From positions 492,923 to 556,922 of the forward strand of contig NZ_OESG01000014.1 in the NCBI RefSeq assembly GCF_900240945.1: 64,000 nucleotides of DNA, written 5' to 3'. Below the pieces are notes generated by a model. That model searched no databases. It saw only the letters and a program-made list of their open reading frames with translations, and was not told where the DNA came from. Below, in pieces: positions 1,905-20,061 of the stretch. Both the position numbers and the translations under genes were made by a program. How positions within the stretch are numbered: the first letter of the stretch is position 1; every line of letters starts with the position of its first letter. This stretch comes from Mycobacterium sp. 3519A (GTDB lineage Bacteria > Actinomycetota > Actinomycetes > Mycobacteriales > Mycobacteriaceae).

Positions 1905-1947
1905 TTACTGATGGGTATAGTTCGGGCGAGTTACTGGTGGGTAACTT
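1905..1947 (+). promoter_or_regulatory. Tandem dyad operator/promoter region of fadE5
   Basis: Two copies of a TTACTGRTGGGTAW motif lie at 1905-1918 and 1931-1944, with centres 26 bp apart. The second is part of the 18-bp dyad AGTTACTGGTGGGTAACT (1929-1946). TAACTT at 1942-1947 fits a TANNNT minus-10 box and would give a leader of about 40 nt before fadE5. The outer half-sites TTACT/GTAA are shared with the TetR-type palindromes at 12095 and 18854, but the centres differ (10 of 14 positions match), so control by the same repressor is uncertain. Confidence 0.5.
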
Positions 1948-1994: not shown

Positions 1995-3830
1995 GTGAGC
2001 CACTACAAGAGCAACGTCCGCGACCAGGTATTCAACCTGTTCGAGGTGTTCGGCGTGGACAAGGCGTTCGGTGAGGGTGCTTTCACCGACCTGGACACCG
2101 ACACGGCGACCGAGATGCTGGGAGAGATCGCCCGGCTGGCCGAGGGTCCGATCGCAGAGTCCTTCGCCGACTCCGACCGCAACCCGCCGGTCTTCGACCC
2201 CAAGACCCATTCGGTGACACTGCCGGAGCCGTTCAAGAAGTCCATGCGTGCGCTGTTCGACGGCGGCTGGGACAAGATCGGCCTCGTCGAGGAGCTCGGT
2301 GGCATGCCGATGCCCCGCGCGCTGCAGTGGGCCCTGATCGAGCATGTGCTCGGCGCCAACCCCGCCGCGTACATGTACGCGATGGGTCCCGGCATGGCGC
2401 AGATCCTCTACAACCTCGGCACCGAGGAGCAGAAGAAGTGGGCCGTACTGGCCTCCGAGCGTGGCTGGACCGCCACCATGGTGCTGACCGAGCCCGACGC
2501 GGGTTCTGACGTCGGCGCCGGCCGGACCAAGGCCACCCAGCAGCCCGACGGCACCTGGCACATCGACGGTGTGAAGCGCTTCATCACCTCGGGTGACGCC
2601 GATGACCTGGGCGAGAACATCATGCATCTGGTGCTGGCCCGCCCCGAGGGCGCAGGCCCGGGCACCAAGGGGCTGTCGCTGTTCTTCGTGCCGAAGTTCC
2701 ACTTCGACCCCGAGACCGGTGAGCCCGGTGAGCGCAACGGCGTGTTCGTCACCAACGTCGAGCACAAGATGGGCCTTAAGGTTTCGGCCACCTGCGAGCT
2801 GTCGCTGGGACAGCACGGCGTTCCCGCTGTCGGCTGGCTGGTCGGCGAGGTGCACGACGGCATCGCGCAGATGTTCGACGTCATCGAGCAGGCTCGAATG
2901 ATGGTGGGCACCAAGGCAATTGCCACGCTGTCCACCGGCTACCTGAACGCCCTGGAGTACGCCAAGGAGCGTGTGCAGGGTGCCGACCTGACCCAGATGA
3001 CCGACAAGACCGCGCCGCGTGTGACCATCACGCACCACCCGGACGTGCGTCGCTCGCTGATGACGCAGAAGGCATACGCCGAGGGGCTGCGCGCGCTGTA
3101 CCTGTACACCGCGACGTTCCAGGATTCGGCGGTCGCCAAGGCGCTGCACGATGTGGACGCCGAACTGGCCGTGCGGGTCAACGACCTGATGCTGCCGATC
3201 GTCAAGGGTGTCGGCTCGGAGCAGGCCTACGCCAAGCTGACCGAGAGCCTGCAGACCTTCGGTGGGTCCGGCTTCCTGCAGGACTACCCGATCGAGCAGT
3301 ACATCCGTGACGCCAAGATCGACTCGCTGTACGAGGGCACCACGGCCATCCAGGCGCAGGACTTCTTCTTCCGCAAGATCGTCCGCGACAAGGGCCAGGC
3401 GCTGGCGTATGTGGCAGGCCAGGTCGAGTCGTTCGTCAAGAACGAGGCGGGCAACGGCAGGCTCAAGGCTGAGCGCGCGCTGCTGGCCACCGCGCTGGAG
3501 GATGTCCAGGCCATGGCCGCGTCGCTGACCGGCTACCTGATGGCCGCGCAGGAGAACCCCGCCGAGCTGTACAAGGTGGGCCTGGGTTCGGTGCGCTTCC
3601 TGATGAGCGTCGGCGACCTGGTTCTCGGCTGGCTGCTGGCCCAGCAGGCGGCGGTGGCCATCGAGGCGCTCGACGGCGGTGCCAGTGGTGACGACCGCGC
3701 CTTCTACGAGGGCAAGATCGCGGTGGCGTCGTTCTTCGCGAAGAACTTCCTGCCGATGCTGACCAGCACCCGCAGCATCATTGAGAACCTCGACAACGAG
3801 GTGATGGAACTGGACGAGGCGGCGTTCTAA
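1995..3830 (+). CDS. fadE5: Acyl-CoA dehydrogenase FadE5
   Basis: The 611-residue protein catalyses the first, FAD-dependent step of beta-oxidation. Its length and opening ([18 protein letters not shown]) agree with mycobacterial FadE5. The GTG start at 1995 follows GAGGAGG (1984-1990) closely; the open frame continues upstream but lacks a ribosome site. ACAD signatures are visible: [12 protein letters not shown] in the middle domain, then [21 protein letters not shown] and [17 protein letters not shown], where the Glu of YEGTT sits in the catalytic-base region. A roughly 100-residue C-terminal extension (ACAD_C type) is present. The gene is followed by a strong terminator, so it is probably monocistronic. 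Confidence 0.97.
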
Positions 3831-10773: not shown

Positions 10774-12081
10774 CTAGGCTTCCAGAATGGCGGCGACGCC
10801 CTGGCCGCCGGCCGCGCAGATCGAGATGAGGCCGCGGACCGGTTGGCCGGTCTCCTTCTTCTTCTCCGCGAGTTGCTTGGCGAGCTGCGCCACGATCCGC
10901 CCGCCGGTCGCGGCGAACGGGTGCCCCGCGGCCAGCGACGAACCGTTGACGTTGAGCTTCGACCGGTCGATCGAGCCGAGCGCCTTGTCCAAGCCGAGCC
11001 GTTCCTTGCAGTACTCCTCGGACTCCCACGCCTGCAGGTGCGCGAGCACCACCGACGCGAACGCCTCGTGGATCTCGTAGAAGTCGAAATCGCCGAGGCT
11101 CAAGCCGTTTCGGGCCAACAGCCGCGGCACGGCGTAGGTGGGCGCCATCAGCAGACCGTCCTTGCCGTTGACGTAGTCGACCGCCGCGGTCTCGGCGTCG
11201 ACGTAGTACGCCAGCGGCTCGATGCCGTGCTGTGCGGCCCAGTCCGGGGTGGCGAGCAGCGACACCGACGCGCCGTCGGTCAGCGGCGTCGAGTTGCCCG
11301 CCGTCATGGTGGCGTCACCGTTCTTCACGCCGAACACCGGCTTGAGTTTGGCGAGCTTCTCCGGCGACGAGTCCGCGCGCAGGTTGTTGTCCCGGTACAG
11401 CCCGAGGAACGGGGTGACCAGGTCGTCGAAGAATCCGCGGTCGTAGGCGGCGGCCATGTTGCGGTGGCTGGCGGCGGCCAGCTCGTCCTGATCGACGCGC
11501 TTGATGCCCATCTGCTTGGCCGTGATGGCCTGATGCTCGCCCATCGACAGACCGGTGCGCGGTTCGCTGTTGACGGGAATCTGGATGCCCAGTGAGGCGG
11601 GCAGTTTGCCGACCAGCTTGAGCCGCTCGAGGTTGGACTTGGAGCGGCGCAGTCCGAGCATCACGCGGCGCAGGTCGTCACCGAACGCGATGGGCGCGTC
11701 GGAGGCGGTGTCCACGCCACCCGCGGCGGCGACGTCGTAGCGGCCTGCGGCGATGCCGTCGGCGGCGGCGATGGTGGCCTGCAGACCGGTGCCGCAGGCC
11801 TGCTGGATGTCGAACGCGGGCGTGTAGGACGACAGCGAGCTGCCGAGCACGCACTCCCGCATCAGGTTGAAGTCGCGGCTGTGCTTGAGCACCGCACCGC
11901 CGATCACCGCGCCCAGCGTCTCGCCGTCGAGGTTGAAGCGGTCGATCAGTCCGCCCAGCGCCGCGGTGAACATGTCCTGGTTGGAGGCGTTGGCATACGC
12001 GCCGTCCGACCGTGCAAACGGAATCCTGTTGCCGCCGAGGATGGCGACGCGTCGGTGGGTATCACTAGCCATGAGCCCCAT
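10774..12081 (-). CDS. fadA2: Acetyl-CoA acetyltransferase / thiolase FadA2
   Basis: 435 residues. The last beta-oxidation step, or its reverse: thiolytic cleavage of 3-ketoacyl-CoA. Thiolase landmarks are the N-terminal nucleophile Cys in [14 protein letters not shown], the HEAF motif ([11 protein letters not shown]), [14 protein letters not shown] carrying the catalytic His, and [14 protein letters not shown] with the second Cys. ATG 12081 has AAGGG eight bases upstream; ATG 12072 (MASDTHRR) is the alternative. The promoter is shared with divergent fabG4 and contains a TetR-type palindrome at 12095-12110, placing both genes under common control. Order and orientation match Rv0243/Rv0242c. 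Confidence 0.95.
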
Positions 12082-12094
12082 ACTACGCACCCTT

Positions 12095-12110
12095 CTTACT
12101 CTGGAGTAAG
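12095..12110. promoter_or_regulatory. TetR-type operator in the fadA2/fabG4 divergent promoter
   Basis: A perfect 16-bp palindrome, CTTACTCTGGAGTAAG, sits between divergent starts at 12081 (minus) and 12120 (plus). On the plus strand its left half contains TACTCT (12097-12102), a TANNNT minus-10 match for fabG4 giving a start site about 10 nt before the ATG. The core TTACTC-NN-GAGTAA recurs exactly on the start codon of the TetR gene at 18854. Confidence 0.8.
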
Positions 12111-12119
12111 TTCGTCATC

Positions 12120-13469
12120 ATGGCTACCGATCTGTATTCGCAAATCGTCCACTCGGCGCCCGGATCGTTCCTCGCCAAGCAGCTCGGCATCCCGCAGCCG
12201 GAGACGCTGCGCCGGTACAAGCCCGGCGACCAGCCGCTGACGGGCACCCTGCTGATCGGCGGTGAGGGTCGCGTCGTCGAACCGTTGCGCGTCGCGCTGG
12301 CCGAGGACTACGACGTGGTGTCGGACAACCTCGGCGGCCGCTGGGCCGATTCGTTCGGCGGGCTGGTGTTCGACGCCACCGGCATCACCGACCCCGCCGG
12401 GCTGAAGGCGCTGTACAAGTTCTTCACGCCGCTGCTGCGCAACCTCGGGCCGTCCGGGCGCATCGTCGTGATCGGGACGACGCCCGAGGACGTCGGCGGG
12501 CACGAGCGGGTGGCGCAGCGGGCGCTCGAGGGGTTCACCCGGTCGCTGGCCAAGGAGATGCGGCGCGGCGCCACGGTGAACCTGGTGTACCTGTCGCCGG
12601 AGGCCAAGCCCGCGGCGACGGGGCTGGAGTCGACGGTGCGGTTCATCCTGTCCGGTAAGTCGGCCTACGTCGACGGGCAGGTGTTCCGGGTGGGCGCGGC
12701 CGATTCAGCGCCGCCCGCCAATTGGGACAAGCCGCTGGACGGCAAGGTGGCGATCGTGACGGGTGCGGCGCGTGGCATCGGCGCGACGATCGCGGAGGTC
12801 TTCGCGCGGGACGGGGCGAAGGTGGTGTGCATCGATGTCGAGAGCGCCGCCGATGCTCTCGGTAACACCGCGTCCAAGGTGGGCGGCACGGCGCTGACGC
12901 TGGACGTCACCGCCGAGGATGCCGTCGACAAGATCACTGAGCATCTGCGTGAGGTGCATGACGGTCGCGCCGACATCCTGGTCAACAACGCGGGAATCAC
13001 CCGGGACAAGCTGCTGGCCAACATGGACGAGGCGCGCTGGGATTCGGTGATCGCGGTGAATCTGCTTGCGCCGCTTCGGCTCACCGAAGGGCTGGTGGAG
13101 AACGGAAGCCTCGCCGATGGCGGCAGGGTCGTCGGGCTGTCGTCGATGGCGGGCATCGCGGGCAACCGCGGCCAGACGAACTACGCGGCCACCAAGGCAG
13201 GCATGATCGGGCTGACCGACACGTTGTCCGAGGCGTACGCGTCGAAGGGCATCACTGTCAACGCGGTCGCGCCCGGCTTCATCGAAACGAAGATGACGGA
13301 GGCGATTCCGCTGGCCACCCGTGAGGTGGGCAGGCGCCTCAACTCGCTGTATCAGGGCGGTCAGCCGGTCGACGTTGCCGAGACCATCGCCTACTTCGCG
13401 AGTCCCGCGTCGAATGCCGTGACCGGCAATACGATTCGGGTGTGTGGCCAGGCATGGTTGGGTGCATGA
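12120..13469 (+). CDS. fabG4: High-molecular-weight 3-oxoacyl reductase FabG4
   Basis: 449 residues, the long HMwFabG form. A degenerate N-terminal flavodoxin-like half (1-205) precedes a classical SDR half (210-449). The SDR half has TGAARGIG for cofactor binding, NNAG ([12 protein letters not shown]), catalytic Ser in VVGLSSMAG and YxxxK in [10 protein letters not shown], and PGFIETKM near the end. HMwFabG enzymes use NADH and reduce 3-ketoacyl-CoA/ACP. With htdX, starting 1 bp after its stop, and divergent fadA2, it forms a ketoreductase-dehydratase-thiolase set that could run fatty acid synthesis-like elongation or beta-oxidation. Confidence 0.96.
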
Positions 13470-13470
13470 C

Positions 13471-14313
13471 ATGACGCAACCGTCTGGCTTGATGAACCTG
13501 GTGCGCGCGGCGGCAGGTGCGCTGCCGCTGGTGCCGCGCGGCGACACGCTGCCGGAGCGCACGTTGACGGTCGACGAGTTGGGCATCGATGCGGCCAACG
13601 TCGCGGCGTATGCGAACGTGACGGGGTTGCGGTTCGGTGATGCGGTGCCGCTGACCTATCCGTTCGCGTTGACGTTCCCGACGGTGATGGCGCTGGTGAC
13701 CGGGTTCGACTTTCCGTTCGCCGCAATGGGTTCGGTGCACATCGAGAACCACATCACGCAGTACCGGCCGATCCTGGTGACCGATACCATGTCCGCGCAG
13801 GTGCACGCCGAGAATCTTCGTGAGCACCGGCGCGGGCTACTGGTGGACATCGTCACCGATATCAAGGTCGGCAACGAGCAGGCGTGGCATCAGGTGACCA
13901 CATTTCTGCATCAGCAGAAGACGAGCCTGTCCGACGAGCCGAAGCCGCCGCCGCAGAAGCAGCCCAAGCCCGGTCCGCCGAACGCGGTGCTTCGCATCAC
14001 GCCGGGGCAGATCCGGCACTACGCGTCGGTCGGAGGGGATCACAACCCGATCCACACCAACCCGATCGCCGCGAAGCTGTTCGGATTCCCGACGGTGATC
14101 GCGCACGGAATGTTCACCGCTGCAGCGGTTTTGGCGAACATCGAGGGGCAGCTGCCGGATGCGGTGAAGTATTCGGTGCGGTTCGCCAAGCCGGTGGTGC
14201 TGCCCGCACAGGCCGGTCTGCATGTCGACCGCATCTCCGACGGGTGGCAGTTGACGCTGCGCAACCTGAAGAAGGGCGATCCGCACCTGACGGGAACGGT
14301 GACGGCGCTATAG
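13471..14313 (+). CDS. htdX: (3R)-hydroxyacyl-ACP/CoA dehydratase HtdX (MaoC hotdog)
   Basis: 280 residues from ATG 13471, one base past the fabG4 stop; the length equals that recalled for Rv0241c. It is a double-hotdog hydratase 2 enzyme. The signature is in the C-terminal half (YASVGGDHNPIHTN, with catalytic Asp and His, then FPTVIAHGMFTAAAV). It interconverts (3R)-hydroxyacyl and trans-2-enoyl thioesters, the step after FabG4. The operon link to fabG4 is strong (1-bp spacing). Its 3' end overlaps the convergent L,D-transpeptidase gene by 6 bp. Confidence 0.96.
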   Translation: MTQPSGLMNLVRAAAGALPLVPRGDTLPERTLTVDELGIDAANVAAYANVTGLRFGDAVPLTYPFALTFPTVMALVTGFDFPFAAMGSVHIENHITQYRPILVTDTMSAQVHAENLREHRRGLLVDIVTDIKVGNEQAWHQVTTFLHQQKTSLSDEPKPPPQKQPKPGPPNAVLRITPGQIRHYASVGGDHNPIHTNPIAAKLFGFPTVIAHGMFTAAAVLANIEGQLPDAVKYSVRFAKPVVLPAQAGLHVDRISDGWQLTLRNLKKGDPHLTGTVTAL

Positions 14314-14952
14314 CGTCGGGCTTCCGACGCCGATGGTGATGACCGGCGACGCCGACGGGTCGAGCCAGTTCAACACGCTGCGCATGTCGTCGCGGTTGAT
14401 GGCCACGCAACCCCAGGTCGGGCTGCCGTCGGTGACGTGCAAGAAGATTCCGGAGACGCGGCCCGGAATGCGTTGCGGATTCACCGCGATGTTGACCGCG
14501 TAGTCGTAGACAGGTCCGGAGTCGTAGAGGTTCTCGGCGATCGACGAGGGACTGCCGGAGCGGCGCACGTGGGTGTTGTAGCTGGGTGATCGGGCGTCCT
14601 CGTCCCACCAATCCTGTTGGGTGGCTTGGAAGTAGGGCATCTTGGTGCCGGGGTTGGGTTGTCGGCCGAAGGCCTGGTCGAATCTGAACGTCCCGACGGG
14701 CGTGCGATGCACACCGTCGGCAGGAGCGCCGACACCGAGCTCACCGACTTTGGCGGGCACCGGGCCCAGCACCACCTTCCACTGCTGACTGACGCGTTGG
14801 TAGGCGGTCAGAGTTCCCGTGGTGGCGTGTGCCGCTGGCACGCCGACGACGATCCACTGGGCGGGTTGGCCTGCGGGATCCGCTGCCGCGGGCGCGGCAA
14901 GGGGAAGGCTGAGCATTGCCAGTCCCAGCCACAGTGTCTTGGCGAACCTCAC
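14308..14952 (-). CDS. Secreted YkuD-family L,D-transpeptidase-like protein
   Basis: 214 residues from GTG 14952, with a Sec signal peptide (MRFAKTLWLGLAMLSLPLAA, cleavage near AAA-DP). The catalytic signature is at the C terminus: GIFLHVTDGSPTWGCVAIN, with His, Ser, Gly and the nucleophilic Cys of YkuD/ErfK enzymes. Typical roles are 3-3 cross-linking of peptidoglycan or attaching proteins to it. There is no Ig-like domain, unlike LdtMt1/2, so it belongs to the short stand-alone group. Its start overlaps the stop of the small upstream gene as GTGA (14949-14952), implying coupled translation. Confidence 0.88.
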   Translation of the reverse strand: MRFAKTLWLGLAMLSLPLAAPAAADPAGQPAQWIVVGVPAAHATTGTLTAYQRVSQQWKVVLGPVPAKVGELGVGAPADGVHRTPVGTFRFDQAFGRQPNPGTKMPYFQATQQDWWDEDARSPSYNTHVRRSGSPSSIAENLYDSGPVYDYAVNIAVNPQRIPGRVSGIFLHVTDGSPTWGCVAINRDDMRSVLNWLDPSASPVITIGVGSPTL

Positions 14953-15107
14953 AAGGGCGGCATCTTCGCCGATAACCAGTCGTTGATGGCGTCTTGGCCG
15001 ATCTGGTGAGCTTGCACGGCTTGTGATGCCGACCTTGGCTGCCCGGTGCTGTCGAAATGCGACTGCAATACGCTAAGGATCGCGCTGTACAGGTCCTTGT
15101 CGGTCAC
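14949..15107 (-). CDS. Small 52-residue protein coupled to the L,D-transpeptidase gene
   Basis: GTG 15107 is preceded by GAGAGGAAG (minus strand), a good ribosome site. The product starts MTDKDLYSAILSVLQSHF and ends DWLSAKMPPL. It has no signal peptide or membrane segment and is probably helical. The longer open frame running upstream to 15599 passes through the intergenic repeats and looks non-coding. The 4-bp stop/start overlap with the transpeptidase is the best support for it being real. Function unknown; I do not recognise the family. Confidence 0.6.
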   Translation of the reverse strand: MTDKDLYSAILSVLQSHFDSTGQPRSASQAVQAHQIGQDAINDWLSAKMPPL

Positions 15108-15200
15108 TGCTTCCTCTCGTCCGCCAACCAGCTTCCGTCGCATTCTTGCGACGCGACGTGTCACTGAAGGCAAGCTCCGATAACGATTCGACGGCGAGGC

Positions 15201-15334
15201 GAAAGGCACTTGTCGTTTTGCCCACGTACACAGCGACAACGCCGCCGTACCGAACGGGACCTTCCCGAACGCTTCCACCGCACGGCCCGAGGAAAGGCAC
15301 TTGTCATTTTGCCCACGTACACAGCGACAACGCC
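15201..15334 (+). repeat. 43-bp direct repeat, two copies
   Basis: Copies at 15201-15243 and 15292-15334 match at 42 of 43 positions (G to A at 15215/15306), 91 bp apart. Each contains TTGCCCACGTACACAGCGAC, which in reverse orientation closely matches the 3' end of the PfkB gene repeated at 15323-15485. The 345-bp gap 15108-15453 holds these repeats and no convincing gene. Confidence 0.85.
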
Positions 15335-15485
15335 AGGTGTCGGTCAGTTGTCGCTCAGTACGTGGGCATTTCGCCGACCCACCCCCCTGGCCGCGGAAAC
15401 CACACAACCCCAGCCAGAGCGAGCGACAACACCAGCTGTCGGTCAGTTGTCGCTCAGTACGTGGGCATTTCGCCGATCCACCCCC
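15323..15485 (+). repeat. 64-bp direct repeat including the PfkB gene 3' end, two copies with internal hairpins
   Basis: Copies at 15323-15386 and 15422-15485 match at 61 of 64 positions. The second copy carries the last codons and stop (15454) of the PfkB gene; the first repeats them outside the gene. Each copy starts with a hairpin: AGCGACAAC pairs with GTTGTCGCT (10 bp with the flanking G/C in the second copy), overlapping the stop codon. No T-tract follows on the minus strand. Confidence 0.85.
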
Positions 15486-16404
15486 GGGCCGTGGGAGCCG
15501 CAAAGGCGTCCGCGGCCGCCAAGTCGAACTCGCCGTGATCACTACCCAAGCCCTGCGCAACAAGCGCCGCGACCGCGCTACCGAGCACCGCGGCCTCACC
15601 CGGCGTCCTGCCCAAGCTCATGCCGCACACGAAGCCCGCCGAGAACGCGTCCCCGCAGCCCGTCGTGTCCACGGCCTCGACCGCGAACGCCGGAACCTGT
15701 TGCATGCCTTCCCGACTGACCACCAGCACCCCGTCGGCTCCACATGTGACCGCCAACAACCCCACCCCCGCGTCGAGCAGGCGCCGACAACCCTCGTCGA
15801 GGTCCGTGGCACCGGTGAACCCGAGCACCTGATCCTCGTTGGGCAACAGATAGTCGGTGTGCGCCAACGCCCGTGCGATCAGATCGAACGTTCCCATACC
15901 GCCAGGCGCGATCAGATCCAGCGACGTCGTGACCCCATTTTCCTTGGCGTGCTGCAGAACTCGCGCCGCGAAGTCCGAGCCGAGCATTTCCACACCCCCG
16001 AGGTGGACATGGTCTGCCGCTGAGATAGCACCCCAGCCTACGTCGTCCAGACCATAGGTGAGGTTGGCGCCGAGCAGATGCAGCGCCGGTCGTTCGCCGT
16101 TTGGCCGGATCGGCAGCACCGACATCGACGTCGCCACATCCGGTTTGCGCACCACCAGCTGAGTGTCGACACCCGCGCGGGCGAGCAGCGACAGCAGCAG
16201 GTCACCCGCAGGATCCTCGCCGATCGCGCCAGCCGTACTCACCGCCGCACCCAGTTTGGCGAACGTCAAGGCAGTGCCCGCGGCCGTGCCCGCCGCCGTC
16301 ATCCGTATCTGCTCGACCAACGCCGTGTCCTGCCCCGGCGGTATATCCGTGACCGGACGCACCAGCACATCGAGGATGTGCGCCCCCATACAGATGACGT
16401 TCAT
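15454..16404 (-). CDS. PfkB/ribokinase-family carbohydrate kinase
   Basis: 316 residues from ATG 16404 (MNVICMGAHILDVLVRPV). The PfkB signature 2, DTTGCGDAFSAGF, supplies the anion hole and the catalytic Asp; the N-terminal GTAAGTALTFAKLGA corresponds to signature 1. It phosphorylates a sugar or nucleoside with ATP; the substrate is not deducible. The ATG overlaps the ABC transporter stop as ATGA (16401-16404), so it is the last gene of lpqI-tetR-ABC-pfkB. Because LpqI releases amino sugars from the wall, a role in sugar salvage is possible (inference). The gene's last codons are duplicated downstream. Confidence 0.9.
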   Translation of the reverse strand: MNVICMGAHILDVLVRPVTDIPPGQDTALVEQIRMTAAGTAAGTALTFAKLGAAVSTAGAIGEDPAGDLLLSLLARAGVDTQLVVRKPDVATSMSVLPIRPNGERPALHLLGANLTYGLDDVGWGAISAADHVHLGGVEMLGSDFAARVLQHAKENGVTTSLDLIAPGGMGTFDLIARALAHTDYLLPNEDQVLGFTGATDLDEGCRRLLDAGVGLLAVTCGADGVLVVSREGMQQVPAFAVEAVDTTGCGDAFSAGFVCGMSLGRTPGEAAVLGSAVAALVAQGLGSDHGEFDLAAADAFAAPTARGWIGEMPTY

Positions 16405-18221
16405 CGGTACACCAGATCGGGGTCGACGTTCTGCGCGTCGTACAACCGCTTGTACAGCCCGCCCGCCGCCATCAGCGTGCGGTGATCGCCCACCTGCGCG
16501 ATCCGCCCGTTCTCGAGCACCAGGATCCGATCCGCAACCGCGGCAATGAAATCCATGTCGTGGCTGATCACCACGCACGTGCGGTCGCGGGCATAATCTC
16601 GAATCACACTGGTCAGCCTGGCCCGTTGATCGGCGTCGAGATTCTCTGTCGGCTCGTCCAGCAGCAACACCTCGGGTTTGCGTAACAGGCAGCGCGCCAG
16701 CGCGATCAACCGCTTCTGCCCACCGGACGGCACCTGCACATCCATCACCGTGTCATAGCCGTCGCGCATCTTCGTCGGATCGGTGATGACCTCGTGCACA
16801 TGCGCCTGCCTGCAGGCCTCCTCGACATCGGCGTCGGTCGCGTCCGGACGTGCCAGTCGAATGTTCTCCCGAATCGTGTCTTTGGTGAAGAACGGAAACT
16901 GCGCGAGCTTGGACACCTGGTCACGCAGCGACGCGATGGTCACACCGGTGACGTCGTGCCCGTCGAGCAGTATCCGTCCGCCCTGCGGATCCAGGAATCG
17001 CAGCAGCAGGTTGAACACCGTCGACTTGCCCGACCCGATGCCACCCACGAGCGCCACCGTCTCACCCTCGCTGATCGAGAACGACAACCCTTGAAGCACG
17101 GCATGTTCCGGGGCATAACCGAACGTCACGTCCTCGAACACGACATTGCCGTGTACCTCACCGATCGGGGTGGCGCCGGCACGGTCCGAAACGCTCGGGC
17201 GGGTGTCGAGCAACTCGTACGTCGAGGCCGCACTCGGCAGCACCGACTGGTAAGTCGTGTACGCGCCCATCACCCGTTGCGCCGCACCGAACATCGTCGG
17301 GACCATCCCCGCGAACACCATCAGGCCCGCGAACGTCAACCCGAAGCCCGCACTGAAGCCCACGCCGACAAGCAACACCACCACAGTGCTGAGCGCGACG
17401 AACACCTGAGACCCGTTGGCGGTGGCCTGCATCCAGACCACACTCGACGCGTCGCTGGCCGCCGCCGCCTCCGACGCCTCGCGGAATCGCCTGCTGCGGA
17501 TGGGCTCCGCATTGAACGTCTGGATCTCGGCGATCCCATTCACCGTCTGCTCGAGTTCAGCGGACATCAGCCGGTCCGCGTTGATCACCCGCTGTATCGC
17601 GCTCTGCACATGACGGCCCGCGAACCTCAGCGTCACCAACGCCAACGGCGTGAGCACCAGCGCGGCGATCGTCATCTGCCACGAGATGGCCAGCAGATAA
17701 GCCACCGCCACCACCAACACCAGCGCATCGATCAGCGGAGCCAGCAGGCAGTCCATCAAAAGCCGTTGCACGCCAGCCGATTCCACCGTCACCCGCGGTA
17801 TCAGCGCACCGCTGCTCGACCCGGCGAAGAAGTCCAGCGACAGCGTCTGGATGTGGTCGTGCACCCGCTGCCGGATGTCGGTGACGAGTATTCGTTGCGC
17901 CCTCACCCGCACCGCAGCGTTCACCAGATACATGAACTGGGTGAGCAGCAGCGAGGCGCCCCACGTCGCGAGCAGCACCGCGAACGGCACCGGACCCGCC
18001 AGCGCGGCCAGCAGACCGTCCTCGCGGGCGACCAACGGCCCCCGCAAATCCCATACCCCGCTGAGGTTTCCACTGGCACCCGCGTCGGCGACGACCTGCA
18101 TCATGGGCCCGAACGCAGCCGCCGTGATGTACGGCAGCGCCGAGGCGATCACACCGAGAACCAGCAGGGCCACGATCAGGCCACGCACCGACCGCAACAG
18201 GCCCAGGCTGCGCCACACCAC
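16401..18221 (-). CDS. ABC exporter, fused permease-ATPase half transporter
   Basis: 606 residues from GTG 18221. An N-terminal domain with six membrane helices (about 15-320) is followed by a nucleotide-binding domain. Walker A is GGIGSGKST and Walker B is EVLLLDEPTENLD with its catalytic Glu. The signature is PSGGQ in place of LSGGQ. The switch His is in CVVISHDMDF. This is the architecture of type IV exporters such as MsbA or CydC-like proteins, working as a dimer. It starts 10 bp after the tetR stop and overlaps the kinase start, so it belongs to the lpqI-tetR unit. Cargo unknown. Confidence 0.92.
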   Translation of the reverse strand: MVWRSLGLLRSVRGLIVALLVLGVIASALPYITAAAFGPMMQVVADAGASGNLSGVWDLRGPLVAREDGLLAALAGPVPFAVLLATWGASLLLTQFMYLVNAAVRVRAQRILVTDIRQRVHDHIQTLSLDFFAGSSSGALIPRVTVESAGVQRLLMDCLLAPLIDALVLVVAVAYLLAISWQMTIAALVLTPLALVTLRFAGRHVQSAIQRVINADRLMSAELEQTVNGIAEIQTFNAEPIRSRRFREASEAAAASDASSVVWMQATANGSQVFVALSTVVVLLVGVGFSAGFGLTFAGLMVFAGMVPTMFGAAQRVMGAYTTYQSVLPSAASTYELLDTRPSVSDRAGATPIGEVHGNVVFEDVTFGYAPEHAVLQGLSFSISEGETVALVGGIGSGKSTVFNLLLRFLDPQGGRILLDGHDVTGVTIASLRDQVSKLAQFPFFTKDTIRENIRLARPDATDADVEEACRQAHVHEVITDPTKMRDGYDTVMDVQVPSGGQKRLIALARCLLRKPEVLLLDEPTENLDADQRARLTSVIRDYARDRTCVVISHDMDFIAAVADRILVLENGRIAQVGDHRTLMAAGGLYKRLYDAQNVDPDLVYR

Positions 18222-18230
18222 TCGGCGAGC

Positions 18231-18854
18231 CTAGTTTGACGCCACCGCCTGCGTGTCCTTATCGGACGGCGTGCCCTTCAAGCCGCGCCAGAACAGGTTG
18301 ATCATCAACTCGGCGGCCTCGTTCACGTCGGCGTCGCCGGTGCTGACCCTGGTGGCCACCGCCTCACCGGCACCCACCAACGCGACGGCCATCATGTCGA
18401 AATCGGTGTCCGGTTCCGGATGGCGGGTGCCCGACCGCAGCAACCTGCCGACCAGATCGATGATGCGTTCGCGACCCTCGCGCACGGTGTGGGCGAACGC
18501 CTGCGAACTGGTGGCCTGGTTGTAGAGCACCATCCACGACGCCCGGTTCGAGTCGATGTAGGTCAGGAACGCGAGAACAGCGTTGCGCAGCAGATCCTTT
18601 GGACTCTGCGAGAAGTCGATCTTGCTTCGCACATCTTCGACGAACCGCGTCAACTCGCGGTCAAGGCACGCGCCGAACAGTTCTTCCTTCGACCCGTAGT
18701 ACAGATACAGCATCGGTTTGGAGATCTCGGCCTCGGCGGCGATCGCGTCCATCGACGTCTCGTGATAGCCGTTGACAGAGAAGATCTGCACCGCGGCGTC
18801 GAGCATCTGCTGTTCGCGCACGGCGCGCGGCAAACGCTTGGTGCCTCCGGCCAT
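18231..18854 (-). CDS. TetR-family transcriptional regulator (Rv0238-like)
   Basis: 207 residues. The N-terminal HTH (MLDAAVQIFSVNGYHETSMD, then AEISKPMLYLYYGSKEELF) is standard TetR; the C-terminal domain binds an unknown ligand, possibly an acyl-CoA given its likely targets. The ATG at 18854 has no ribosome site: the palindrome TTACTC-AA-GAGTAA ends on its first base, and TACTCT at minus 12 to minus 7 fits a minus-10 box. A leaderless, self-repressed transcript is therefore likely. The same operator occurs at fadA2/fabG4. Readthrough from lpqI (34 bp upstream) is also possible. Confidence 0.93.
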   Translation of the reverse strand: MAGGTKRLPRAVREQQMLDAAVQIFSVNGYHETSMDAIAAEAEISKPMLYLYYGSKEELFGACLDRELTRFVEDVRSKIDFSQSPKDLLRNAVLAFLTYIDSNRASWMVLYNQATSSQAFAHTVREGRERIIDLVGRLLRSGTRHPEPDTDFDMMAVALVGAGEAVATRVSTGDADVNEAAELMINLFWRGLKGTPSDKDTQAVASN

Positions 18855-18867
18855 TACTCAAGAGTAA
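18854..18867. promoter_or_regulatory. TetR auto-operator on the tetR start codon
   Basis: A perfect palindrome, TTACTCAAGAGTAA, whose last base on the minus strand is the A of the tetR ATG. It has the same 6-bp arms as the 12095-12110 site and differs only in the two central bases. Repressor binding here would cover both the predicted minus-10 box and the leaderless start. Confidence 0.85.
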
Positions 18868-18888: not shown

Positions 18889-20061
18889 TCAGCAGCGCGC
18901 ATTGGGTCCCTTCAGCGCCGCCATCCGCAGCACCGACCCATCCACCTGCGCCTGCGTCAACTCACCGGCGGACAGCGCCTTCTCCAGCCGGTCCAGCACC
19001 GCGGGGACTTCGTCGGTGGTCACCCACAGCGCGACGTCGGCGCCGGCCTGCAACCCGCGCAGCGCCGCCTCGGCGACGCCCATCCGGTCGCTGATCGCCT
19101 GCATGCTCGACAGGTCGTCGGTGAACACCGGGCCGCCGAACGGCGGGCCGCCGTAGTCGCCCGACCGCAGCAGCGCGTACGCCGCCGGGCTCAGGCTGGC
19201 CGGGTCGCTGCCGGTGAGGCCGGGCACCTGGAGGTGGCCGACCATCACGCCGACCGGGCCTTGGGTGGTCAGCGTGCGGTACGGGATCAGGTCGTTGGCC
19301 TGCAGGTCCGCGAGCGGCGGGGTGGTCACGCTGCCGGTGTGGGGGTCCCCGGATCCATGGCCGTGGCCCGGGAAGTGCTTGAGCACCGGCAGCAGTCCGG
19401 CGTCGCGCAGGCCGCGCGCGTACGCGCCCGCGTAGTCGGTCACGACGGTCGGGTCGGCGCCGAACGAGCGGTCGCCGATCACGGTGTCGTCGGGGGCGTT
19501 GGTGACGTCGGCGACCGGGGCGAAGTCGATGGTGATGCCGAGCTTGCGCATCGCCTGGCCGCGGGTGAGCGCGATGTTGTACACCTCGTCTGGGGTGTGG
19601 GTGGCGGCCAGCACCCGCGCCGACGGCTGAGTGCCGATCAACGAGGAAAGCCGCGACACCCGGCCGCCCTCCTCGTCGACGCTGACGGCGAGCGGCAGCG
19701 GACCCGTCTGCTCGATGCTGGCCAACGTCCCGTCCGAGAGCATCGACAGATCGGTCCAGCTTCCGATGAAGATGCCGCCGACGTGGTGGTTCTCCACCAC
19801 CGCGCGGGCGTCGGCCGCGCCGGTGACGCCGACCATCAGCAGTTGGGCGAGTTTGTCGCGGTTCGTCATGCTGGCCAGCAGCGCGGGCCCGTTGCCGCAG
19901 GCCGGTGTGGCGGGATCGGCAGCGGGTGCAGGGGCGACGGTCGCGGCCATGGTCGGAGCGGATGTCGCCGACGGTTTGGCGGGCTGCTCCGCGGGCGTCG
20001 AGCAGGCCGCCACAATCAAGGACAGCGCAGCCAGGACCGAAAGTCGACGGGGCAAAGCCAT
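18889..20061 (-). CDS. lpqI: Lipoprotein beta-N-acetylglucosaminidase LpqI (NagZ-type GH3)
   Basis: 390 residues with a lipoprotein signal peptide (MALPRRLSVLAALSLIVAAC) and lipobox Cys20. The GH3 domain contains SVDEEGGRVSRL, the flexible-loop general acid region KHFPGHGHGSGDPHTG and the nucleophile Asp in VFTDDLSSMQAI, equivalent to the FSDDLSM motif of NagZ. It removes N-acetylglucosamine from muropeptides, outside the cytoplasmic membrane in mycobacteria. It heads the minus-strand cluster that continues into tetR, an ABC exporter and a sugar kinase. Its start is 53 bp from that of the divergent patatin gene. Confidence 0.95.
   Translation of the reverse strand: MALPRRLSVLAALSLIVAACSTPAEQPAKPSATSAPTMAATVAPAPAADPATPACGNGPALLASMTNRDKLAQLLMVGVTGAADARAVVENHHVGGIFIGSWTDLSMLSDGTLASIEQTGPLPLAVSVDEEGGRVSRLSSLIGTQPSARVLAATHTPDEVYNIALTRGQAMRKLGITIDFAPVADVTNAPDDTVIGDRSFGADPTVVTDYAGAYARGLRDAGLLPVLKHFPGHGHGSGDPHTGSVTTPPLADLQANDLIPYRTLTTQGPVGVMVGHLQVPGLTGSDPASLSPAAYALLRSGDYGGPPFGGPVFTDDLSSMQAISDRMGVAEAALRGLQAGADVALWVTTDEVPAVLDRLEKALSAGELTQAQVDGSVLRMAALKGPNARC

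Follow-up and report, generated by a model that had tools for sequence, protein, structure and literature searches.

The palindrome TTACTC-NN-GAGTAA (TTACTCNNGAGTAA), which recurs in a 64,000-nucleotide stretch of the Mycobacterium sp. 3519A genome (contig NZ_OESG01000014.1, positions 492,923 to 556,922; the window in what follows), is very likely the operator of the TetR-type regulator encoded at 18231-18854 of that window, a protein that is probably an acyl-CoA-released repressor of fatty-acid beta-oxidation and of its own gene. Beta-oxidation is central to mycobacterial life and persistence, and with a sequence rule for the operator the likely targets of the repressor can be listed in any genome of the family. 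The names fadE24, fadE23, fadE5, etfD, rpsJ and lpqI are those that we presume for these genes, some of them by resemblance.

As the sequence-only reading of this DNA had claimed, the window holds two exact copies of the palindrome, TTACTCTGGAGTAA at 12096-12109, between the divergent genes fadA2 and fabG4, and TTACTCAAGAGTAA at 18854-18867, the end of which coincides with the A of the tetR ATG. When up to two mismatches are allowed there are three matches in the window against a shuffle mean of 0.20, and the third, TTACTGGTGGGTAA at 1931-1944 before fadE5, had been overlooked. A scan of the whole 7.3 Mb genome, which the same reading had proposed, gave three perfect copies against 0.043 expected from the base composition of the window, and none of the pattern read backwards. 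At least one perfect site is present in 191 of 198 genomes of the genus (3 of 198 for the backward control) and in 103 of 151 genomes of the family as the search tool defines it (3 of 151 for the control). The idea that genomes without a perfect site lack the system was ruled out, since all seven such genomes of the genus hold one-mismatch sites. In six of these genomes, nine of the one-mismatch sites matched a fadA2/fabG4, fadE24, etfD or DUF4442 query; neither the sole one-mismatch site of G126 (L227) nor one of those of G165 (L233) matched any query gene. Six more one-mismatch sites come from G002 and G012: there is one each at fadA2/fabG4, tetR and an acyl-CoA dehydrogenase gene, whereas L411 and L412, where the genes resemble by eye those of a biotin carboxylase and a flavin monooxygenase, respectively, have no obvious fit.

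Conservation was followed in the best 80 of 570 confirmed TetR matches from the genus in the genome collection; 12 of these loci were left out of the fadA2/fabG4 count, the divergent pair lying outside the fetched DNA. The features of the divergent promoter are as follows.

12096..12109, no strand assigned: operator O1, TTACTCTGGAGTAA, perfect in 68 of 68 genus loci with the divergent pair (80 loci fetched)
12107..12112, plus strand: probable -10 box of fabG4, TAAGTT; TANNNT fixed here in 68 of 68 loci
12080..12085, minus strand: probable -10 box of fadA2, TAGTAT; the spacing of TANNNT from O1 is identical in 68 of 68 loci
10774..12072, minus strand: fadA2, thiolase; start at the ATG at 12072, not at the upstream GTG at 12090 given by the open reading frame (ORF) tool
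12120..13469, plus strand: fabG4, 3-oxoacyl reductase
13444..14313, plus strand: htdX, MaoC-like hydratase, overlapping the end of fabG4

The sequence-only reading had staked its proposal on the motif being conserved at these promoters in other mycobacteria, and at fadA2/fabG4 this is upheld without exception. In every one of the 68 loci the TANNNT box on the fadA2 side starts 10 bp past O1, and that on the fabG4 side shares the last 3 bp of O1. Because each -10 box stands only 7 nt ahead of its ATG in the window, the fadA2 and fabG4 messages are probably leaderless; if the ATG is counted as +1, O1 lies at about -37 to -24 relative to fadA2, and it shares bases with the -10 box of fabG4. From this site geometry, a protein on O1 would block both promoters. 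It had also been suggested that TACTCT in the left half of the palindrome fits a -10 box in both copies; this is plausible at tetR, but at fadA2/fabG4 it is not the conserved -10, as the invariant boxes lie elsewhere. Outside the genus a set of 40 loci was used, all from other genera and many from lineages without the perfect motif, and in all 34 that have the fadA2/fabG4 gap (6 of the 40 have no pair in the fetched DNA) the gap holds a site with at most two mismatches. These 40 loci, like the 60 site loci described below, were picked by hand and are not a random sample. In two genomes of other genera (L358 and L359) a perfect palindrome of 38 bp is centred on the fadA2/fabG4 operator.

The second exact copy is located at the regulator gene itself, the surroundings of which are listed here.

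18854..18867, no strand assigned: operator O2, TTACTCAAGAGTAA, overlapping the start codon of tetR; L004, L005 and L006 also have a perfect copy there
18861..18866, minus strand: probable -10 box of tetR, TACTCT, inside O2, judged from sequence; 6 nt ahead of the ATG, the message probably leaderless
18231..18854, minus strand: tetR, Rv0238-like, with TetR_N and TetR_C_46 domains; presumably the FdmR orthologue
16401..18221, minus strand: ABC transporter gene directly downstream of tetR, probably co-transcribed with it
15454..16410, minus strand: PfkB-family kinase gene downstream of the ABC gene
18889..20061, minus strand: lpqI (name presumed), upstream of tetR on the same strand

The product belongs to the TetR family (PF00440 at 1.1e-16, PF21943 at 4.5e-28; an all-helical predicted model with mean pLDDT 84), and its recognition helix, SKPMLYLY, is unchanged in 39 of 39 aligned proteins. 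In the window a perfect O2 stands in the gene's own promoter, as autoregulation would demand. Upstream of tetR in the 80 genus loci, 32 have a site with at most three mismatches, including four perfect sites and four with one mismatch, and the control genes never come within three mismatches (lpqI 0 of 75; htdX 0 of 71, where the upstream stretch is fabG4 coding sequence). The relaxed core TTAC-N6-GTAA precedes tetR in 11 of the 80 genus loci and in 28 of the 40 loci of other genera, mostly at -35 to -65, and five of the latter sites are perfect. A general self-operator across mycobacteria is therefore only partly true. The footprinting that had been suggested upstream of Rv0238 and fadA2/fabG4 homologues thus gives a full result for the divergent pair and a partial one for tetR. 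The idea of a self-repressed TetR over a thiolase, a ketoreductase and a hydratase stands in so far as tetR and fadA2/fabG4-htdX share a conserved operator that, by its position, would block polymerase; it has to be amended in that the self-site is patchy within the genus and the target set is larger. Control of lpqI by readthrough is not supported, because lpqI lies upstream of the tetR promoter and readthrough could reach no genes other than those for the ABC transporter and the kinase, which are downstream. Only 8 of the 80 genus loci gave a relative of the ABC transporter gene, and any control over this gene and the PfkB kinase gene would therefore be lineage-specific.

The operator set is larger than the two sites first noticed, and sites of the same type precede fadE24, etfBA, etfD, a DUF4442 (hotdog) gene and fadE5. 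Among 60 fetched loci with a perfect site, 26 lie beside genes that belong to the acyl-CoA dehydrogenase cluster c0 (so labelled after single-linkage clustering, with a few members checked by Pfam), 16 at fadA2/fabG4, 6 beside the DUF4442 gene, 2 each at etfB and at the gene of an EtfD-like iron-sulphur protein, 1 at tetR and 7 elsewhere. Upstream regions were then compared gene by gene, with starts from a simple custom caller and 30 loci each for fadE24, etfD and etfB, out of 60, 57 and 31 matching genomes, respectively. A site with at most one mismatch precedes fadE24 in 30 of 30 loci, 19 of them perfect, and in a second test, from which one locus was dropped, 23 of 29 have the strict core. 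TTAC-N6-GTAA was found before etfB in 29 of 30 loci and before etfD in 19 of 30, 18 of the latter as pairs (17 spaced 25 bp and one 24 bp); DUF4442 relatives have a site with at most two mismatches in 14 of 21 cases. Composition shuffles hit the TTAC-N6-GTAA core in about 0.2% of cases; the shuffles in the upstream tests of fadE24, DUF4442, etfB, etfD, tetR and fadE5 keep base composition only. At fadE5 the core is present in all 42 loci (41 of the genus, one of a different genus), and a TTAC-N6-GTAT-like partner lies 25 or 26 bp off in 29 of the 35 copies displayed (42 found). The corresponding features of the window are the following.

1931..1944, no strand assigned: operator O3, TTACTGGTGGGTAA, with two mismatches; 50 bp from its end to the fadE5 start
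1905..1918, no strand assigned: partner site TTACTGATGGGTAT; its start is 26 bp ahead of that of O3
1995..3830, plus strand: fadE5-like acyl-CoA dehydrogenase, 611 aa (name presumed)

The gene neighbourhood, the self-sites in distant genera and the co-occurrence of protein and motif point to this TetR as the protein that would bind. The perfect motif is present in 101 of 136 family genomes with this TetR and in 2 of the 15 without it, a contrast evaluated by a Fisher test in which relatedness of the genomes is not corrected for. At up to two mismatches the Mycobacterium sp. 3519A genome holds 32 matches and the control 19, and therefore a weak match counts little unless it is conserved. Several observations weigh against the assignment to this TetR or against parts of it. 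Of the 80 genus loci, 48 have nothing recognisable before tetR, no clear fatty-acid neighbour is present at 7 of the 60 fetched site loci, 7 of the 21 DUF4442 relatives have no site within two mismatches, and 11 of the 30 etfD upstream regions have no core. In the Mycobacterium sp. 3519A genome TTACCGATCAGTAA and TTACTCAACCGTAA lie upstream of the fas gene (FAS domain found), at distances of about 490 and 320 bp, respectively, from its presumed start. Finally, two genomes of genus g8, G204 and G233, are without this TetR, their best hits being 29% identical and FasR-like (285 and 266 bits, respectively, with the FasR model, cut-off 330), and in G204 a fadE5-like gene is nevertheless preceded by a perfect site and etfD by a one-mismatch site. 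No gene start was called near a further one-mismatch site of G204 (L410), and G233 gave no perfect site in a scan for perfect matches only. G211, also seemingly without the TetR, is 66% complete and hence uninformative on the absence of the protein; its sites lie near etfB, etfD, rpsJ and the gene of an AMP-binding (FadD-like) protein.

It is possible, although we consider it the less probable course, that FasR reads the same or an overlapping TTAC-N6-GTAA and that some sites (etfD, etfB, fadE5, fas) are those of FasR or common to both proteins. By sequence no named relative of this TetR is closer than FasR, which is also one of the closest in fold, and the two share SKP-x-LY in the recognition helix; residues 51-53 of the helix differ, however, being L-Y-Y in this TetR and Q-H-F or Q-Y-F in the FasR type. 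The pair TTACCGATCAGTAA and TTACTCAACCGTAA lies upstream of fas, where, according to excerpts of PMC7382501, FasR reportedly binds three inverted repeats. On the one hand, G204 has the FasR-like protein and retains its sites; on the other hand, G201 and G231 have FasR-like proteins (179-180 bits), no such TetR and no perfect site, the presence of the target genes there not having been checked. The tetR neighbourhood and the self-sites favour this TetR over FasR. The TTAC-type sites upstream of fas and the case of G204 therefore keep shared FasR operators a live rival for the weaker sites. One could go further and, as a speculation that we consider rather improbable, suppose that two paralogous sensors, the TetR as repressor of breakdown and FasR as activator of synthesis, share a TTAC-N6-GTAA code in which the inner bases and the 25-bp pairing pick the winner at each promoter, so that one acyl-CoA signal would flip synthesis and breakdown in opposite directions throughout the family.

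That some other regulator binds the fadA2/fabG4 palindrome, with tetR merely one more target, is unlikely. It would account for the loci in which tetR has no recognisable site and the fadA2 site is perfect where fetched (48 of 80), as well as for the sites retained by G204, but self-sites of tetR recur in distant genera, and among 20 flanking proteins scanned with Pfam, from a set of 60 loci whose other flanks were left unscanned, a regulator appeared once (HTH_31, L208). A promoter element resembling a -35 box, rather than an operator, is a very improbable identity for the palindrome: its position upstream of fadA2 and its fixed distance to both -10 boxes would suit one, yet both arms are invariant and symmetric, the palindrome overlaps the start codon at tetR, and elsewhere the distances vary and pairs stand 25 bp apart. 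Recurrence by chance, to which only the modest excess at two mismatches lends anything, is refuted by the conservation across the family together with the number of perfect copies in the genome.

If the TetR is the binder, as we consider very likely, a dimer would bind TTACTC-NN-GAGTAA and, with less stringency, TTAC-N6-GTAA. It would thereby occupy the promoters of fadA2, fabG4-htdX, fadE24-fadE23, fadE5, etfBA, etfD and tetR, and fatty-acid beta-oxidation with its electron transfer chain would be repressed. The predicted model is similar in fold to the acyl-CoA-binding FasR and FadR, and a long-chain acyl-CoA or another acyl thioester probably enters the C-terminal pocket and releases the protein, by which the pathway would be turned on by its own substrate. 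The best sites (fadA2/fabG4, fadE24) would give tight repression, and the weaker or 25-bp-paired ones (etfD, fadE5, some fadE24) graded control; from the operator rule one can thus predict which promoters are under tight and which under graded control. The rule further prompts the question of whether there is competition for common DNA sites between the regulator of fatty-acid synthesis and that of breakdown.

A regulator of this kind is the subject of a 2021 paper by Dong et al. in PNAS, which PMC8728441 cites. It is FdmR of M. marinum, reportedly a long-chain acyl-CoA-responsive TetR repressor of fatty-acid catabolism. We take its locus to be MMAR_0501 and the TetR studied here to be, very probably, its orthologue. 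Candidate operators at fadA2/fabG4, fadE24, fadE5, etfBA and etfD, all genes of fatty-acid degradation, are what a regulon of the FdmR type would be expected to have. The M. marinum fabG4 and fadA2 are MMAR_0503 and MMAR_0504 (PMC10699116), and the assumed position of MMAR_0501 therefore fits an orthologue of Rv0238. In that case the regulator is already known, and probably its motif as well, and the remark of the sequence-only reading that no motif had been described is probably outdated; the present analysis contributes the geometry of the promoters, the looser class of operators, their pairing at 25 bp, their occurrence in other genera and a possible overlap with FasR. Both proteins are of the TetR type, and the footprint outside mycobacteria may exceed that given for FdmR.

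Among other known systems, Bacillus FadR (YsiA) has about 20% identity to this TetR and a different operator, and its NCBIfam model scores 61.6 bits against a cut-off of 200. FasR (Rv3208) activates fas-acpS and hence synthesis, in contrast to the repression of breakdown proposed here; with 100.2 bits on the FasR model (cut-off 330), this TetR is therefore not FasR. KstR, the operator of which is also a 14-bp palindrome with a 2-bp centre, and MftR are, as is proposed for this TetR, mycobacterial TetR repressors of lipid-linked genes; their models score 37 bits (cut-off 280) and 46 bits (cut-off 225), respectively. MftR is released by long-chain acyl-CoA, and its palindrome, T-N2-GGCA-N5-TGCC-N2-A, is unlike the operator described here (excerpts of PMC8728441). 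In PMC4482099, Rv0238 is among five TetR regulators kept in all mycobacteria examined, M. leprae included, and is named once, outside the motif table. A passage of PMC8648758 gives Rv0238 as an example of a regulator essential for growth on glycerol only, which fits a repressor of breakdown. As far as the excerpts go, FabG4, FadA2 and FadE23 are up together in one mutant proteome (PMC10999552), and FadA2, FadE23 and FadE24 in starved BCG (PMC11250799); the operator rule offers a reason for the joint rise of FadA2, FabG4, FadE23 and FadE24. Extracts of PMC11980559 describe FadE23-FadE24 as isoniazid-induced and SigE-controlled, and this TetR therefore cannot be the sole regulator there. A literature search returned no paper joining fadE24, fadA2 and fabG4, or three of Rv3139, Rv0243, Rv0238, Rv0242c and Rv0681, which is no proof of novelty as the name FdmR was not searched; by their titles only, none of the 20 papers listed, of 82 with both half-sites as letters, is on this regulator.

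Elsewhere in the Mycobacterium sp. 3519A genome, TTACYNNNNRGTAA occurs 16 times and its reverse not at all. Single sites lie at fadA2/fabG4, tetR, fadE5, etfBA, another acyl-CoA dehydrogenase gene, the malate synthase G gene, a fatty-acid desaturase gene and an MFS transporter gene; etfD has two sites 25 bp apart, and single sites precede fas by about 0.5 kb, rpsJ by about 0.3 kb and a polyketide-synthase-like gene by 0.26 kb. Before fadE24 there are two one-mismatch sites, again 25 bp apart. The rpsJ-side site (L001:1501-1514, genome C13:630229) is the third perfect copy of the palindrome. In other species the DUF4442 gene stands beside the rpsJ-side site, divergent from rpsJ in L235, but a search of this genome for the gene at E 1e-30 gave no match; the site looks like an orphan operator left after gene loss, or like one that acts on the S10 operon. 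At malate synthase G (L401, C12:149451), TTACCCAGCGGTAA is centred about 33 bp before the gene, and this suggests that the glyoxylate shunt may be linked to the operator set. Three further TTACYNNNNRGTAA sites (L215, L216 and L405) start 53-57 bp before the ATG of related proteins, which have an N-terminal AGIALVGASVIAV-like stretch, are probably exported and have no Pfam match at E 0.1. These three sites continue into GTT and thereby form the same TAAGTT box as that of fabG4.

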